From contig SUWF01000018.1 in NCBI GenBank assembly GCA_015061575.1, forward strand, positions 1-59,859: a stretch of 59,859 nucleotides of DNA, in the 5' to 3' direction. Every line of letters begins with the position of its first letter. The stretch's first letter is position 1. The stretch is from Lentisphaerota bacterium. Its GTDB lineage: Bacteria; Verrucomicrobiota; Lentisphaeria; Victivallales; Victivallaceae. Below are positions 36,280 to 54,826 of the stretch, piece by piece. Under the pieces are notes generated by a model. That model was not told the origin of the DNA. It did no database searches and worked only from the letters and a program-made list of their open reading frames with translations. The translations under genes and the position numbers were made by a program.

Positions 36280-36324
36280 ATGAAAAAGCGTTTTACCCTT
36301 ATTGAACTATTAGTGAACATTTAG
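36280..36324 (+). pseudogene. 5' stump of a pseudopilin gene split by the mobile element
   Basis: The ATG has AAGGAAAGA upstream and encodes MKKRFTLIELLVNI, then TAG. The first 29 nt (to 36308) are host sequence encoding the prepilin peptidase signal; the rest comes from the element. The remainder of the gene starts at 54130. Joining 36280-36308 to 54130-54826 gives 726 nt, 241 codons plus stop, in frame. Confidence 0.93.
36301..36324 (+). other. attL of the recoded element
   Basis: The left junction lies in the codons for the prepilin IELLV motif. AACT (36305-36308) is the only identical base block shared with attR (54126-54129). This fits a large serine recombinase, which needs only a very short core. 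Confidence 0.8.
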
Positions 36325-36362
36325 AATAAACACCGTGAATTTTTCACTGGTTTAAAAATAGC

Positions 36363-36403
36363 ATCCCTTGAGAGAAAATACAAGTCTTTCAAGGGATTTT
36401 TTA
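36363..36403. terminator. Intrinsic terminator inside the left end of the element
   Basis: The perfect 9-bp stem ATCCCTTGA (36363-36371) / TCAAGGGAT (36389-36397) is followed by T residues on the plus strand. On the minus strand it is followed by GCTATTTTT, so it can end transcription from both sides, protecting host and element transcripts from each other. Confidence 0.82.
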
Positions 36404-36420
36404 TTGTTTTTTTCAGAAAG

Positions 36421-36894
36421 TCAGCGTTTTTTCTGTGATTTGCGGAATTGGTAAGGATTTATGGGGTTTGGGTCTGCCCATAAGCCTTTTTTATCTGCTC
36501 TTGCTTGCTTTTCAGCTTGAATGTATGCAGGGGTTTTATCGTAATAGCTGTAATGCCACGCATAGCCATTTTGAACCATTACAAGATTGATTTCTGCACC
36601 GTCACAGTAAATAACCCCTAAAACTCTGCCGTAACGGTCAATTTCTTTGAACCTTACAGAAACTTGTTTGCCGAAAATCAAAGAGGATAAATACTGTTTG
36701 GCTTTGTTGCCAAAGGCTTGTTTCTTTTCAGGTGCATCAATTTTATTAAGGCGTATGCGGAATTTGCCTTTATCAAGATTATCTAAAACGGTAATGGTAT
36801 CACCGTCAGAAACGCCAACCACCTTACCAATGATTTCAGCAGAAAAGAGAGAAAGAGAGAGAAAAAGTAAAGAGAGTAAAAACAGTGGTTTCAT
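36421..36894 (-). CDS. Secreted thermonuclease-like (SNase) protein, no TAG codons
   Basis: A 157-aa protein with a signal peptide (MKPLFLLSLLFLSLSLFSAE) and a staphylococcal-nuclease fold: VVGVSDGDTITV, RIRLNKIDAPEKKQAFGNKA, DRYGRVLG and NGYAWHYSYY, ending LWADPNPINPYQFRK. The catalytic Arg/Asp/Glu residues are in IRLNKIDAPE and DRYGRVLG. It cuts DNA or RNA outside the cytoplasm. It contains no TAG, so it can be made by the host code in a lysogen. A hairpin covers its ribosome site. The start at 36894 is chosen for the signal peptide. Confidence 0.9.
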   Translation of the reverse strand: MKPLFLLSLLFLSLSLFSAEIIGKVVGVSDGDTITVLDNLDKGKFRIRLNKIDAPEKKQAFGNKAKQYLSSLIFGKQVSVRFKEIDRYGRVLGVIYCDGAEINLVMVQNGYAWHYSYYDKTPAYIQAEKQARADKKGLWADPNPINPYQFRKSQKKR

Positions 36895-36897
36895 GCT

Positions 36898-36932
36898 GTG
36901 GTTGTTTCCTTTGGAGTTATGGGAAACACCAC
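36898..36932 (-). promoter_or_regulatory. Hairpin over the ribosome site of the nuclease gene
   Basis: GTGG-T-TGTTTCC (36898-36909) pairs with GGAAACA-CCAC (36922-36932), an 11-bp stem with one bulge. On the minus-strand RNA the AAGGAA Shine-Dalgarno site lies in this stem, 4 nt before the ATG at 36894. It may repress translation until opened. Confidence 0.5.
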
Positions 36933-36960
36933 AAAAAAAGAGGTGCATCCCTGATTATAC

Positions 36961-52097: not shown

Positions 52098-52296
52098 CAG
52101 CAGCAATCCTTTTTACTATACTGCCGTTATTAACTTTGATTTTTTCAAGATTTGTGTTATAAATCAGCGTCATCAATTTTGAGCCGTCAAAAATCAATTC
52201 TGGGCGTGTTTATGATGTTTTCCATGTCATTTATCAGCCAACATTTCCATAGGCTCCACAGCTCTGCCAATGCCCTTAAAACGCATCCTGTATAGA

Positions 52297-52333
52297 AACA
52301 AAAAGAGCATACCAACTGTTGCTGATATGCTCT
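52297..52333 (-). terminator. Terminator of the serine recombinase gene
   Basis: The perfect 8-bp stem AGAGCATA (52304-52311) / TATGCTCT (52326-52333) is followed by TTTTTG on the minus strand, 22 nt after the recombinase TGA. Confidence 0.85.
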
Positions 52334-52354
52334 GGGGAAATTTGGGGTATGGGG

Positions 52355-54040
52355 TCAGTACATTATCTTGTAAAAATCAGTTTCAAGGATTTTTTCACCA
52401 TCACCAAATTTAACTGTTGGCTTTACAATTCCGTTATCAAAATAGTTTTCAACAGTACCATAGTCAATAATGGTTCTACCACGTTTATCAACCAATTTCC
52501 GCTGTATGGTGAAAGTGTTTCCGTCATACAGTTCTACTTTCAGTTCTGTTGGATAAACCGTAATTTTGTTGATAGTTTTTCTAATCAAAGTTGAAAACTC
52601 ATCCTCTCCAATCAGTTCATGGTATGTATCTGATTTGATTTTACCAAACATTTCATTAAGCCATGCAATCAATCTGTCATCAGCTTCGGCGTTTTGGTTT
52701 TCGTTTTGCAAAATTTCTTGTTTGATAGCTTTTTTTCTGTCAGCCAACAGTTTTATTTGCTGGTCAAAAATATCATCAGCAATGCCATTGGCAGTAAATG
52801 CAGAAACAAGTTTGTTGATTTTGCTTTCAACGTTCAACAGCTCCACTTGCAAATTTTCCACAGAAACGCTTTTTGTCTGTCGGCTTTTGATTTCAGCATA
52901 CCATGTAAAAAGGCTAATCATCAGCAGTGGTTGCAAAGCAAGGTACAAATCATTATCATCAGTATCAATAAAGGTTCTCAATCTGCCTTTGCCACATCCA
53001 ATTTGTTTTTTCAAGTAACGGTGTCTGCAATAATATATAACCCCATTATCTTTACCAACAGTGAGTTTTTTTCCACAATTTCCACAAAACAACAAACCAC
53101 TTAAAGGCAGGAAATTGTATTTTTCTTTTCGGCTTTGTCTGCCTCCTCTTGCTTTACGGTCAGCAATAATTTGATTTGCGGTTTTCCATTCATCAAAAGA
53201 AATAATGGGGTTCACAATATTTTTGGCTTTGATGATTTCACCGTCTTTGATTTTAATACCACAGTAAATGGGGTTAGCAATGATGTTATAGATAGATGTT
53301 TCATAAAAACATTGTCCGTCAGCCAATGCCAAAAATTGAGTATTGATAGCAGAGAGAGTACCACCAACTGTTTTGCCGTTGATAATGCTGTCAAAAACAA
53401 ATTTAACAACCTTTGCTTTTTCGGCATGGAAACAAACTTTTTTATCAATCCATTCCACGGCATAAGCATTTGAAAAAACAAAACCTCTTTTCAACAGCTC
53501 TTTTCTGCTTTTCATTGAGTTATTATGGCGTTCTGTCAGCTTTTCCATTTCATAAGTGGCAAGCAACCGTCTTACAGCCAAATCAATATTATTGTTTATG
53601 GGGTCAATTTTTCCGCTTTCGGCTTCAACCAATGCAACGCCATTTTCTTTGAGAGTTCCCAAACAATAGGTATCAAGGGTTGCCAATGGGTGAGGGTTAC
53701 GGTAAAAGCGTGTACTTTCATTAACAATAAAATAGTCAATTTTAGAGAGCTGTTCAAAAGCCAATGCCAAACCTTTACGGTATTTTCTTCTGCCTTTGGT
53801 TTGCTGTTTGCTTGCCCATCTTCTCCACTCTCTATCTGTGGCGGCATAAGCTCTGCCCTCATCAGAGTCCGGGTACAGTTCAGAGCTTGTATTTGTGTCG
53901 GTAAATTCTCCGATAATTTCAACGTTGTTTCTTTCAGCCCATGCCCTGCAAGCGTTAATTTGCAATTCACAGCTCAAAGAATTTTCTTCTGCTCCAAAAC
54001 TCTGTCTGGCGTAAATTACTGCTGTTTTTTTCGTTTCCAT
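52355..54040 (-). CDS. Large serine recombinase (integrase), no TAG codons
   Basis: A 561-aa site-specific recombinase. The N-terminal resolvase domain shows AVIYARQS (about residues 6-13) with the nucleophile Ser, and STRFYRNP. The recombinase domain follows (GFVFSNAYAVEWIDKK, ANPIYCGIKI), then a zinc ribbon (CGNCGKKL...YYCRHR...GCGK) and a coiled coil. It integrates and excises the element at the pseudopilin site. It has no TAG in 562 codons, so it is readable by the host code, unlike its neighbours. The start at 54040 has AAAGGA upstream. It stops at TGA. Confidence 0.95.
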   Translation of the reverse strand: METKKTAVIYARQSFGAEENSLSCELQINACRAWAERNNVEIIGEFTDTNTSSELYPDSDEGRAYAATDREWRRWASKQQTKGRRKYRKGLALAFEQLSKIDYFIVNESTRFYRNPHPLATLDTYCLGTLKENGVALVEAESGKIDPINNNIDLAVRRLLATYEMEKLTERHNNSMKSRKELLKRGFVFSNAYAVEWIDKKVCFHAEKAKVVKFVFDSIINGKTVGGTLSAINTQFLALADGQCFYETSIYNIIANPIYCGIKIKDGEIIKAKNIVNPIISFDEWKTANQIIADRKARGGRQSRKEKYNFLPLSGLLFCGNCGKKLTVGKDNGVIYYCRHRYLKKQIGCGKGRLRTFIDTDDNDLYLALQPLLMISLFTWYAEIKSRQTKSVSVENLQVELLNVESKINKLVSAFTANGIADDIFDQQIKLLADRKKAIKQEILQNENQNAEADDRLIAWLNEMFGKIKSDTYHELIGEDEFSTLIRKTINKITVYPTELKVELYDGNTFTIQRKLVDKRGRTIIDYGTVENYFDNGIVKPTVKFGDGEKILETDFYKIMY

Positions 54041-54065
54041 CTTGTTTTTTCCTTTACATTGTGTT

Positions 54066-54094
54066 AATTTATCTCTTACTATGGAGTTTTTCAA
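54066..54094 (-). promoter_or_regulatory. Promoter of the recombinase gene next to attR
   Basis: On the minus strand TTGAAA (54094-54089), a 17-bp spacer and TAAATT (54071-54066), all in element DNA. It would drive the recombinase in both the integrated and the circular form. Confidence 0.6.
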
Positions 54095-54826
54095 ATGCTA
54101 AACGAAAATTTACGGTGTTTCTTTCAACTGTTGGTAGTGATCGCAATTATCGCCATTCTGGCGGCCATGCTGCTGCCGGCCCTGTCGGCTGCCCGGGAAC
54201 GTGCCCGCAACGCCAACTGCATAAACAAACTCAAACAGATCGGTCTGGCCGGTTTTATGTATGCTGACAGCAATCATGGCTATCTGCCGCCCTCCAGTAT
54301 CGGCGGTGTCGATGAAAAGTCTTCCAACCAATGGAGTTGGAACTGGTATGCCGCCCAAAACCTTAACGGGATGAGTATTCTGGTTTTGCATGGTTATTTC
54401 GGCGATGACCTGGGTGGCGGTTACAATGGAGCGGATAATCAGAAACGGATCCTGGCCCGCTACTATCAGTGCCCCTCGGATACCAGCGGCAACAACTTTG
54501 GCGCAGCCGGCGGCAAGGTCAGCTATTGCCGGATCTGGATCGGCGCTCCGAACAGCAGCGATGCACGAATCAAGGACGTTTCCGGCTACACCATGGCTGA
54601 TTTGCCGGAAGCCAGCCGCAATATGACCGGTCATGGAAATCCTTCCAACGTCATTGTGTTTGATATTTTCAACTCGCAGGGCAAAACTGACTACACCAGC
54701 AACCACGCCAATACGGTCAACTTTCTGGCGCTGGGCGGTCATGCCACAAGTTCGCCCACGCCTACGCAGGCGGCCGCCGGAACCACTTTCAACAACCGTT
54801 GGATCAAGTGGATGGACGAACAGTAA
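54095..54826 (+). pseudogene. 3' part of the split pseudopilin gene, with element-supplied start
   Basis: From 54130 this is a host pseudopilin: LLVVIAIIAILAAMLLPALS, then AARERARNANCINKLKQIGL and a C-terminal HANTVNFLALGGH (variant H-x9-DG motif). The ATG at 54095, with a GGAG site, comes from element DNA and gives MLNENLRCFFQ in place of the signal MKKRFTLIE. A chimeric 243-aa protein could be made but lacks the prepilin peptidase recognition site. Confidence 0.9.
54119..54140 (+). other. attR of the recoded element
   Basis: The right junction: element sequence up to CAACT (54125-54129), then host codons CTG TTG GTA GTG for LLVV of the prepilin motif. It shares AACT with attL. Rejoining at AACT restores ATT GAA CTG TTG GTA GTG (IELLVV). 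Confidence 0.8.

Follow-up and report, generated by a model that had tools for sequence, protein, structure and literature searches.

A stretch of 59,859 nucleotides from a Lentisphaerota contig (here called the window) carries an integrated element of 17.8 kb (36306..54130, no strand assigned) whose late genes use TAG as a sense codon, and comparison with homologues predicts that TAG in this element is read as glutamate and not as glutamine. We consider it probable that the element is phage derived, that TAG means glutamate in its tail genes, and that its late genes stay untranslated until a TAG-reading tRNA appears. The GC content of the element was 30 to 40%, versus 47 to 59% outside it in the window, and the element interrupts a prepilin-type host gene. 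The start of this gene (MKKRFTLIE...) and the left junction are found at 36280..36306 (plus strand), and its body, which has no start (VVIAIIAILAAMLLPALS...), is found at 54130..54826 (plus strand), as identified by comparison with a sister species (G023:C57) in which the flanks of the split gene are adjacent and the stretch matching the left junction, inverted there, adjoins the prepilin-type gene body. An att-like dyad is present at both ends of the element, which encodes a large serine recombinase of 579 amino acids (aa) (52355..54094; PF00239, PF07508, and PF13408; phrog_95, 8e-52); like a temperate tailed phage, the element combines an integrase and att sites with tail and fibre genes. 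Among named relatives, those nearest to the hydroxylamine reductase in the flank belong to Lentisphaeria/Lentisphaerae metagenome-assembled genomes (identity, up to 86%), and the host is likely a gut Lentisphaeria bacterium. The initial annotation, which had proposed an integrated phage-like element in a Lentisphaerota-type host, is borne out on the first count by the split gene, att-like ends, GC content, recombinase, and tail genes and on the second by the relatives of the reductase.

Five successive bins of 2.5 kb that cover 37.5 to 50 kb had coding densities of 0.13, 0.29, 0.13, 0.29, and 0.20 with translation table 11, which rose to 1.00, 0.98, 0.99, 0.87, and 0.91 with table 15, i.e., from 13 to 29% to 87 to 100%. 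For the whole window, density was 0.74 with table 11, 0.91 with TAG as sense, and 0.81 with TGA as sense; bins holding host DNA only shifted by ≤0.01 when TAG was made sense. In-frame TAG codons numbered 98 across 17 element genes (4,035 codons), and a gene remnant (46288..46635) holds 6 more. Two open reading frames (ORFs) were left out of this count, a doubtful one at 51946..52197 (1 TAG) and one at 46254..46595 (3 TAGs) that probably reads the remnant in a wrong frame. Nineteen consecutive TAG-containing genes had originally been described; that TAG lies within genes holds, yet there are 17 such genes and their run is not unbroken, TAG being absent from the nuclease gene (36421..36948), a 218-aa gene (49503..50159), and the recombinase gene. 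Of the 20 genes counted in the element, 14 stop at TGA, 6 at TAA, and none at TAG (by construction of the frames), and 4 of 51 host ORFs of ≥200 aa do use a TAG stop, both as initially annotated. The recombinase has no TAG in 579 codons (chance, 7e-7 if TAG were as frequent there as in the late genes). Presence of TAG in late but not in early or integration genes, classes assigned from gene type, was likewise seen in a second TAG element (L096), which sits in another host family. The same frames that hold 98 TAGs hold no TAA or TGA (chance, 2e-47, assuming equal probabilities for the three stops), and relatives keep glutamate at many of the TAG sites. Both findings speak against a decaying prophage in which the TAGs are ordinary nonsense mutations, a reading that we find barely credible even though it would suit the failure to find head genes and the truncation of one tail-module gene.

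All element genes are on the minus strand. The leftmost encodes a staphylococcal-nuclease-type protein of 175 aa (36421..36948; PF00565, E = 1.1e-28), a homologue of which adjoins a related recombinase at locus L092. Next come genes for a DUF1353 protein (37208..37579; 2 TAGs; PF07087, E = 7.4e-24; phrog_1158, E = 1.5e-29, labelled tail assembly chaperone in PHROGs), a small protein with the look of a lipoprotein (37572..37970; 1 TAG; weak phrog matches only), a small membrane protein that may be holin-like, judging from its position and look (37949..38260; 1 TAG; no significant Pfam or PHROGs family), a concanavalin/laminin-G-like protein (38205..38951; 3 TAGs; PF13385, E = 2.9e-12), and a 141-aa protein (38915..39340; 3 TAGs; ORF call). 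The tail and fibre genes that follow encode a 452-aa fibre protein carrying a shared N-terminal domain (39337..40695; 9 TAGs), a beta-rich, tailspike-like helix protein of 705 aa (40735..42852; 16 TAGs), a 423-aa collagen-like fibre (42871..44142; 17 TAGs; PF01391 and phrog tail fibre matches), a paralogue of the fibre N-terminal domain (44148..44816; 10 TAGs), a conserved phage protein of 338 aa (44829..45845; 11 TAGs), and a tail-module protein (45893..46285; 4 TAGs), assigned from its homologues in G067, G075, and G062, which lie directly upstream of the homologue of the 338-aa protein. The sizes and TAG counts of the 452-, 705-, 423-, and 338-aa proteins confirm those given previously. The structure predicted for the 705-aa protein (mean pLDDT, 84.5) had phage tailspikes as its top Foldseek matches, with low TM scores. 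To the right of the remnant are genes for a putative HTH-type regulator (46862..47356; 6 TAGs; weak match to phrog_4779, E = 0.023), a membrane-like protein of 117 aa (47353..47706; 1 TAG; ORF call), a putative NinG/zinc-type nuclease (47846..48406; 4 TAGs; phrog_11793, 1.9e-8; phrog_171, 2.3e-6), and, as ORF calls, proteins of 125 aa (48403..48780; 4 TAGs), 214 aa (48777..49421; 4 TAGs), 218 aa (49503..50159), and 212 aa (50412..51050; 2 TAGs; GTG start assumed).

Profile searches of the recoded proteins (Pfam and PHROGs; 20 of 22 ORFs) recovered tail/fibre, nuclease, and recombinase families and no recognisable portal, capsid, terminase, or tape-measure gene of an intact prophage, in agreement with the head-less element first described; two PHROG matches labelled head and packaging (1.8e-7 and 0.005) fall on fibre repeats. 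At 46288..46635, homology identifies a remnant that corresponds to the C-terminal part of a tail-module protein of 265 aa (E = 1e-5, 2e-4, and 8e-4 versus G067, G062, and G075, with 4 proteins searched). On the G067 protein, the match starts at residue 179; no start codon precedes it in the element, the first possible one being an internal GTG at 46560; judged from this alignment, the remnant is likely a deletion scar. With no head, packaging, or tape-measure gene recognised and a tail gene cut short at the gap, we regard the element as a temperate phage that has probably been reduced by deletion. No intact parent phage emerged from scans of viral contigs with the 218-aa protein, the 338-aa protein alone, the recombinase, or alignments A1 and A4, none of which returned a relative; alignments A3 and A5 returned 7 and 2 loci, none clearly recoded in the stretches examined. 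Neither tblastn of INPHARED with P0002 nor a scan of genome contigs with alignment A1 gave a match. The portal of G067 matches 27 of 137 genomes of the order (in G066 at 64% identity, with a single in-frame TAG) and has no relative in the host genome. A living satellite that keeps only tail-fibre genes, moves by means of its own recombinase, and depends on a recoded helper phage for capsids and a TAG-reading tRNA seems to us unlikely. Its recombinase and att-like ends would be intact, as they appear to be here, the 17 late genes are open but for TAG, and three genes have close relatives in other samples, on contigs of up to 32 kb. However, the next tail-module gene is truncated at the module edge, L096 is clearly a deletion remnant (integrase and tape measure truncated), and the host is without a related portal. 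Satellite hallmarks (primase-helicase, small terminase, and capsid-size or packaging interference) were also not recognised with Pfam and PHROGs, which weighs little as several small proteins match no family.

TAG had at first been set beside the reassignment to glutamine known from crAss-like and Lak phages; two comparisons point to glutamate instead. Profiles built from homologues were scored at the TAG sites of six genes (57 distinct sites), giving 37.9 nats for Glu, −6.2 for Asp, and −9.9 for Gln, so that Glu was ahead by 44 and 48 nats. Glu came first whichever gene was left out, and the bootstrap 95% range of Glu minus Gln was 11.0 to 83.9. Applied to sense codons, the test named 55 of 56 correctly, including both Gln and both Glu codons. 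Gln was favoured at 22 of the 57 TAG sites, and two genes taken singly (3 and 4 sites) leaned to Gln by 0.8 to 0.9 nats. Homologues at 48 to 70% identity, covering 44 TAG sites, all had E at 12 sites (collagen-like fibre residues 266, 337, and 340; helix protein residues 342, 482, 483, 530, and 666; 338-aa protein residues 149, 211, 217, and 285) and all had Q at 2. Opposite the adjacent TAG pair at collagen residues 376 and 377, QQ was found in 4 of 4 homologues. The second comparison was restricted to standard-code genome DNA. Residues aligned with window TAG codons (n = 321) were Q in 5%, E in 19%, and D in 14%, versus 35% Q and 5% E for CAR codons (n = 454) and 38% E and 6% Q for GAR codons (n = 666). 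With identical stretches counted once (35 window sites), the likelihood of Glu minus that of Gln was 15.3 (range, 8.7 to 21.2). Amino acid composition is ambiguous: the collagen gene fits Gln better and the 338-aa and helix genes fit Glu.

The closest database proteins (75 to 97% identity) speak the opposite way, Q being the residue opposite TAG in 72 of 92 cases; taken alone and at face value, they put Gln 51 nats ahead of Glu. Because two proteins at 97% identity carry Q at every TAG site (all 17 and all 16), we infer that these Qs are probably TAG codons translated with table 15 by a pipeline. Close relatives had Q at window GAR sites 12 times and E at window CAR sites only twice, as expected if their Qs are mistranslated TAGs. 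An ordinary code-15 element, with TAG meaning Gln and the Glu signal an accident of fast-evolving fibres, would accommodate the Qs of the close relatives, the QQ pair, and the composition of the collagen gene, and passages in the literature that state a meaning for phage TAG give Gln. We nevertheless hold it to be rather improbable, since Q lies opposite the CAR codons of these genes but mostly not opposite their TAG codons, since the 12-to-2 asymmetry fits mistranslation, and since the second element agrees on Glu and a crAss-like control gives the opposite result. Residues of standard-code DNA aligned with L096 TAG codons included no Q and 49 E out of 133, and Glu exceeded Gln by 15.6 (range, 4.6 to 26.4; 34 sites), with the control codon GAG (9 sites) missed (Asp over Glu by 0.9). 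As a positive control, the first 50 kb of the TAG-rich Bohxovirus PV686213, which we take to be a Gln-code phage like the rest of its crAss-like group, was compared with stretches of three crAss phages; phAss-1 was set aside because it had too few relatives. The same pipeline placed Gln first, in the right direction but not decisively, as zero falls within the range of the Glu-minus-Gln difference (−27.3 to 3.6).

A CUA suppressor tRNA is carried by about half of code-15 phages (375 of 715, according to a passage of PMC11210395). ARAGORN with default settings detected no CUA tRNA in the window, and Rfam at E ≤ 5 detected no tRNA there. Laxer ARAGORN thresholds gave hundreds of matches across the whole window; with introns allowed as well, one CTA match was among 182 listed (48205..48318, minus strand, within the gene at 47846..48406 and interrupted by a 45-base intron) and was dismissed as noise at this laxest setting. 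None of 42 host tRNAs, an incomplete set with, e.g., no Phe tRNA, has a CUA anticodon. The pattern TCTAA...GTTCRANTC, which is blind to loops with another base following the anticodon, had 24 matches in the 137 genomes of the order, none of them an ARAGORN tRNA. Mischarging owing to an absent GlnRS was rejected: GlnRS scored above the curated cutoff in 119 of the 137 genomes, among them G393 and the host, where the gene is divided into two pieces by contig ends.

Given a recombinase without TAG and late genes with it, the late genes of the resident element likely go untranslated as long as no TAG-reading tRNA is available. The split gene, the att-like dyad, frames open only with TAG as sense, the TAG-free recombinase, and the alignment of TAG with Glu can be read from the DNA itself; the steps linking them would be as follows. 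A temperate tailed phage, inserted by its serine recombinase, may have been the ancestor, and its genes for head, tape measure, and packaging may since have been lost. A Glu-charged CUA tRNA, from the lost part or from a helper phage, would turn on the late genes; in its absence, every late protein would be cut at its first TAG by release factor 1 of the host, and this would act as a lock. More generally, it is likely that phages of Victivallales-type Lentisphaeria have a private code in which UAG means Glu, the first outside eukaryotes, and that this lock on late-gene translation is kept in head-less integrated derivatives awaiting the Glu-charged CUA tRNA of a helper. The phage annotation described in passages of PMC12454387 and PMC13037316 treats sense TAG as Gln under code 15. 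If some lineages use Glu, acidic positions are misassigned in protein databases, peptides escape proteomic searches, and phages have more kinds of suppressor tRNA open to them than was thought. Two small elements in different hosts also make the hypothesis of regulation by recoding testable.

TAG-recoded phages with sense TAG in structural or late genes and a standard-code host were reportedly described by Borges in 2022. Passages on code-15 tailed phages (Crassvirales, Lak, and phAss-1) describe the same arrangement (PMC9523058, PMC10607447, and PMC10746230), and the element shares it; however, code-15 phages read Gln, whereas the element is predicted to read Glu and is small, integrated, and without recognised head genes or suppressor tRNA. 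An integrated element of this kind, in such a host and without head genes, was initially thought to be new; recoding of an integrated element is not new by itself: a passage of PMC12454387 counts 38 alternatively coded prophages among 10,742 in the pig gut, and one of PMC10746230 cites alternative-code prophages in standard-code bacteria. Those prophages are likewise integrated and alternatively coded, but the element differs from them in codon meaning, deletion form, and host order. The open-access passages searched yielded no phage or bacterium with TAG as Glu. UAG is given as Glu in eukaryotic nuclear codes, namely, those of ciliate PL0344, Campanella, Carchesium, and Blastocrithidia (passages of PMC10553269 and PMC12153298), and the CUA tRNAs of PL0344 are said there to be most similar to tRNA-Glu (PMC10553269). 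Those codes span whole nuclear genomes, whereas here the reassignment would concern only some genes of a phage-like element in a standard-code bacterium.

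Under the standard code (table 11), the minus strand from 37.5 to 50 kb had a coding density of 13 to 29% per 2.5-kb bin, compared with 87 to 100% when TAG was read as sense, which bears out the initial annotation that this reading restores full genes. In bins of host DNA, the same change shifted density by at most 0.01. The run of TAG-bearing genes was real but comprised 17 genes instead of 19, with 98 TAG codons in 4,035 (omitting one doubtful ORF with 1 TAG and another with 3); the 218-aa protein was free of TAG, as were the 175-aa nuclease and the 579-aa recombinase (for the recombinase, P = 7e-7 at the late-gene TAG rate). 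Nonsense decay would yield TAA and TGA too, and neither, described earlier as essentially absent, was present in the frames of the 17 genes. As had also been proposed, host genes stop at TAG: among host ORFs with a length of 200 aa or more, 4 of 51 did so, and thus the host retains this stop, though rarely.

We asked which residue homologues carry at each element TAG site. For the collagen-like gene (42871..44142), 22 homologues were used from the best 120 of 553 matches, with P0026, P0028, and lower, mostly collagen-only matches excluded; for the 705-aa beta-helix gene (40735..42852) and the 338-aa gene (44829..45845), all 13 and all 4 matches were used. In database proteins P0007 to P0010, the TAG sites of the collagen-like gene (68 residues) corresponded to Glu 28 times, Asp 12 times, and Gln 9 times, with two adjacent sites accounting for 8 of the 9 Gln residues. 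The corresponding counts were 57 Gln and 3 Glu at CAR (Gln) codons and 46 Glu, 25 Asp, and 4 Gln at GAR (Glu) codons. With the three genes pooled (homologues of 48 to 70% identity), TAG residues were Glu (68), Asp (22), and Gln (22), and Glu was favored over Gln by 25.6 (range, 7.6 to 43.7). In a Codetta-style profile test (60 aligned TAG positions, 57 distinct), Glu ranked 43.5 nats ahead of Asp, the second-best residue, and 48.2 ahead of Gln, or 44.1 and 47.8 nats ahead at distinct sites, which speaks against the analogy with Gln-code phages drawn initially. Glu stayed first when any one of six genes was dropped; two genes, with 3 and 4 sites, favored Gln by 0.8 to 0.9 nats when taken singly. 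Applied to sense codons taken as unknown (at least 4 aligned positions), the procedure was right for 55 of 56, the exception being TCC (9 positions). In a comparison with standard-code genome DNA, after removal of identical stretches, Glu exceeded Gln by 15.3 (range, 8.7 to 21.2; 35 sites).

The nearest database proteins, taken alone, favored Gln by 51.3 nats, with Gln in 72 of 92 residues at window TAG sites; two of 97% identity had Gln at 17 of 17 and 16 of 16 sites. Because relatives this close would hardly exchange every TAG, we infer that these proteins had TAG translated by table 15 (TAG as Gln). They also had Gln at window GAR sites 12 times and Glu at CAR sites twice, an asymmetry expected if database Gln residues are TAGs exchanging with GAR. 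Database proteins P0001, P0005, P0006, and P0125 to P0127 appear to be table 15 translations in which Gln probably stands where Glu was meant. The Glu/Gln composition of the genes was equivocal, and no CUA anticodon was found in the element (default settings) or among 42 host tRNAs.

A second recoded element (L096) occupies the start of a contig from another family of the same order (G393:C80, 395 to 8137), where it lies in a tRNA-Thr gene, with a 67-base repeat corresponding to the 3' end of that tRNA on either side (395 to 461 and 8071 to 8137). Its first three 2.5-kb bins were 0 to 34% coding with table 11 versus 61 to 100% with TAG as sense. It carries 67 TAGs in six genes and a truncated, TAG-free tyrosine integrase (PF00589 positions 3 to 73 of 172); head genes were not recognized in it, and one protein, from its location and its weak similarity to relatives, looks like a tape-measure C terminus. 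When L096 was compared with standard-code genome DNA, TAG sites (133 residues) gave Gln 0 and Glu 49 times, CAR gave Gln in 62 of 314, and GAR gave Glu in 113 of 249. Such residue counts are not independent, because related and overlapping subject loci were used, and site-level figures are more trustworthy. With identical stretches removed, Glu exceeded Gln by 15.6 (range, 4.6 to 26.4; 34 sites); one control codon, GAG (9 sites), was assigned to Asp, by a margin of 0.9. By the same procedure, TAG-rich genes of the crAss-like phage Bohxovirus, which we take to use the Gln code, gave Gln first (Gln 11.1, Glu −0.7; the difference, Glu minus Gln, ranged from −27.3 to 3.6).

The window element (about 36,306 to 54,130; GC content of 30 to 40% versus about 50% for the host genome) has its left end after the MKKRFTLIE codons of a prepilin-type gene. 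The right end, where a large serine recombinase lies, is followed by VVIAIIAILAAMLLPALS, from a gene of that same type. The ends form an att-like dyad, GGTGTTT...AAACACC. In a sister species (G023), both flanks lie at most about 35 bases apart; this empty site is not clean because the pilin start segment is inverted there. The flanking hydroxylamine reductase had its best relatives in Lentisphaeria/Lentisphaerae MAGs (identity up to 86%), in agreement with the Lentisphaerota host thought likely. Adjoining the recombinase, 50200 to 52300 is an AT-rich stretch in which long ORFs are few and short repeats (AACAAATCAGA, AATACAAGATGGTTTCAA) numerous.

Relatives of the recombinase had a split or partial prepilin-type gene (a half with FTLIELLV or with VVIAIIAILAAM) no more than 1.2 kb away at 8 of 12 distinct loci (L046, L094, L095, L116, L117, L118, L054, and L114; 13 identifiers, L049 being the same place as L095), and no such halves were found within that distance at L090, L119, L055, and L056. 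From these neighborhoods, the family seems to target the multicopy prepilin signal sequence. At L114 (G000:C6, 15318 to 17310) and L116 (G024:C89, 5730 to 7870), the recombinase has a complete pilin on one side and an inverted, start-less one on the other; at L120 (G023:C57, 6734 to 7475), the segment comprising the upstream region and the start of the pilin is inverted relative to the gene body. These three arrangements look like a pilin inversion switch.

The tail-module proteins recur, with their order conserved and encoded in the standard code, on G067:C35 and G075:C25, contigs of related genomes that also bear portal and tape-measure genes (family membership checked for the G067 copies). 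In the window, the module breaks off where the following module gene is truncated (46288 to 46635); this copy aligns with the 265-aa G067 protein from residue 179 onward (E = 1e-5, search of 4 proteins) and has no start codon ahead of the matched part. Consistent with the head genes reported as unrecognizable, no portal, capsid, terminase, or tape measure was recognized when proteins from 20 of the 22 ORFs were scanned, and no related portal was found in the host genome. The 705-aa protein, modeled with TAG entered as Gln, gave a confident beta-rich prediction (mean pLDDT, 84.5) whose best solved neighbors were phage tailspikes, at low TM-scores of 0.12 to 0.19 (nine matches, E ≤ 0.001).

The element had been thought new; recoded prophages are already known, as are phages in which TAG is sense, and UAG as Glu is known in ciliates and trypanosomatids. 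Searches of open-access literature found no case of UAG as Glu in a phage or bacterium. The current hypothesis, as set out in PMC9523058 and PMC10746230, holds that in-frame stops in recoded phages block early making of late proteins, and the anatomy of the element, with its TAG-free recombinase and TAG-full tail genes, fits it. While the element is resident, release factor 1 would truncate every late protein; the lock would be opened by a Glu-charged tRNA with anticodon CUA, either lost along with the missing part or supplied by another phage. An unamidated Gln tRNA would not account for Glu at TAG because the host has GlnRS; the likeliest source would be a tRNA-Glu derivative, as in the ciliate PL0344 (PMC10553269).
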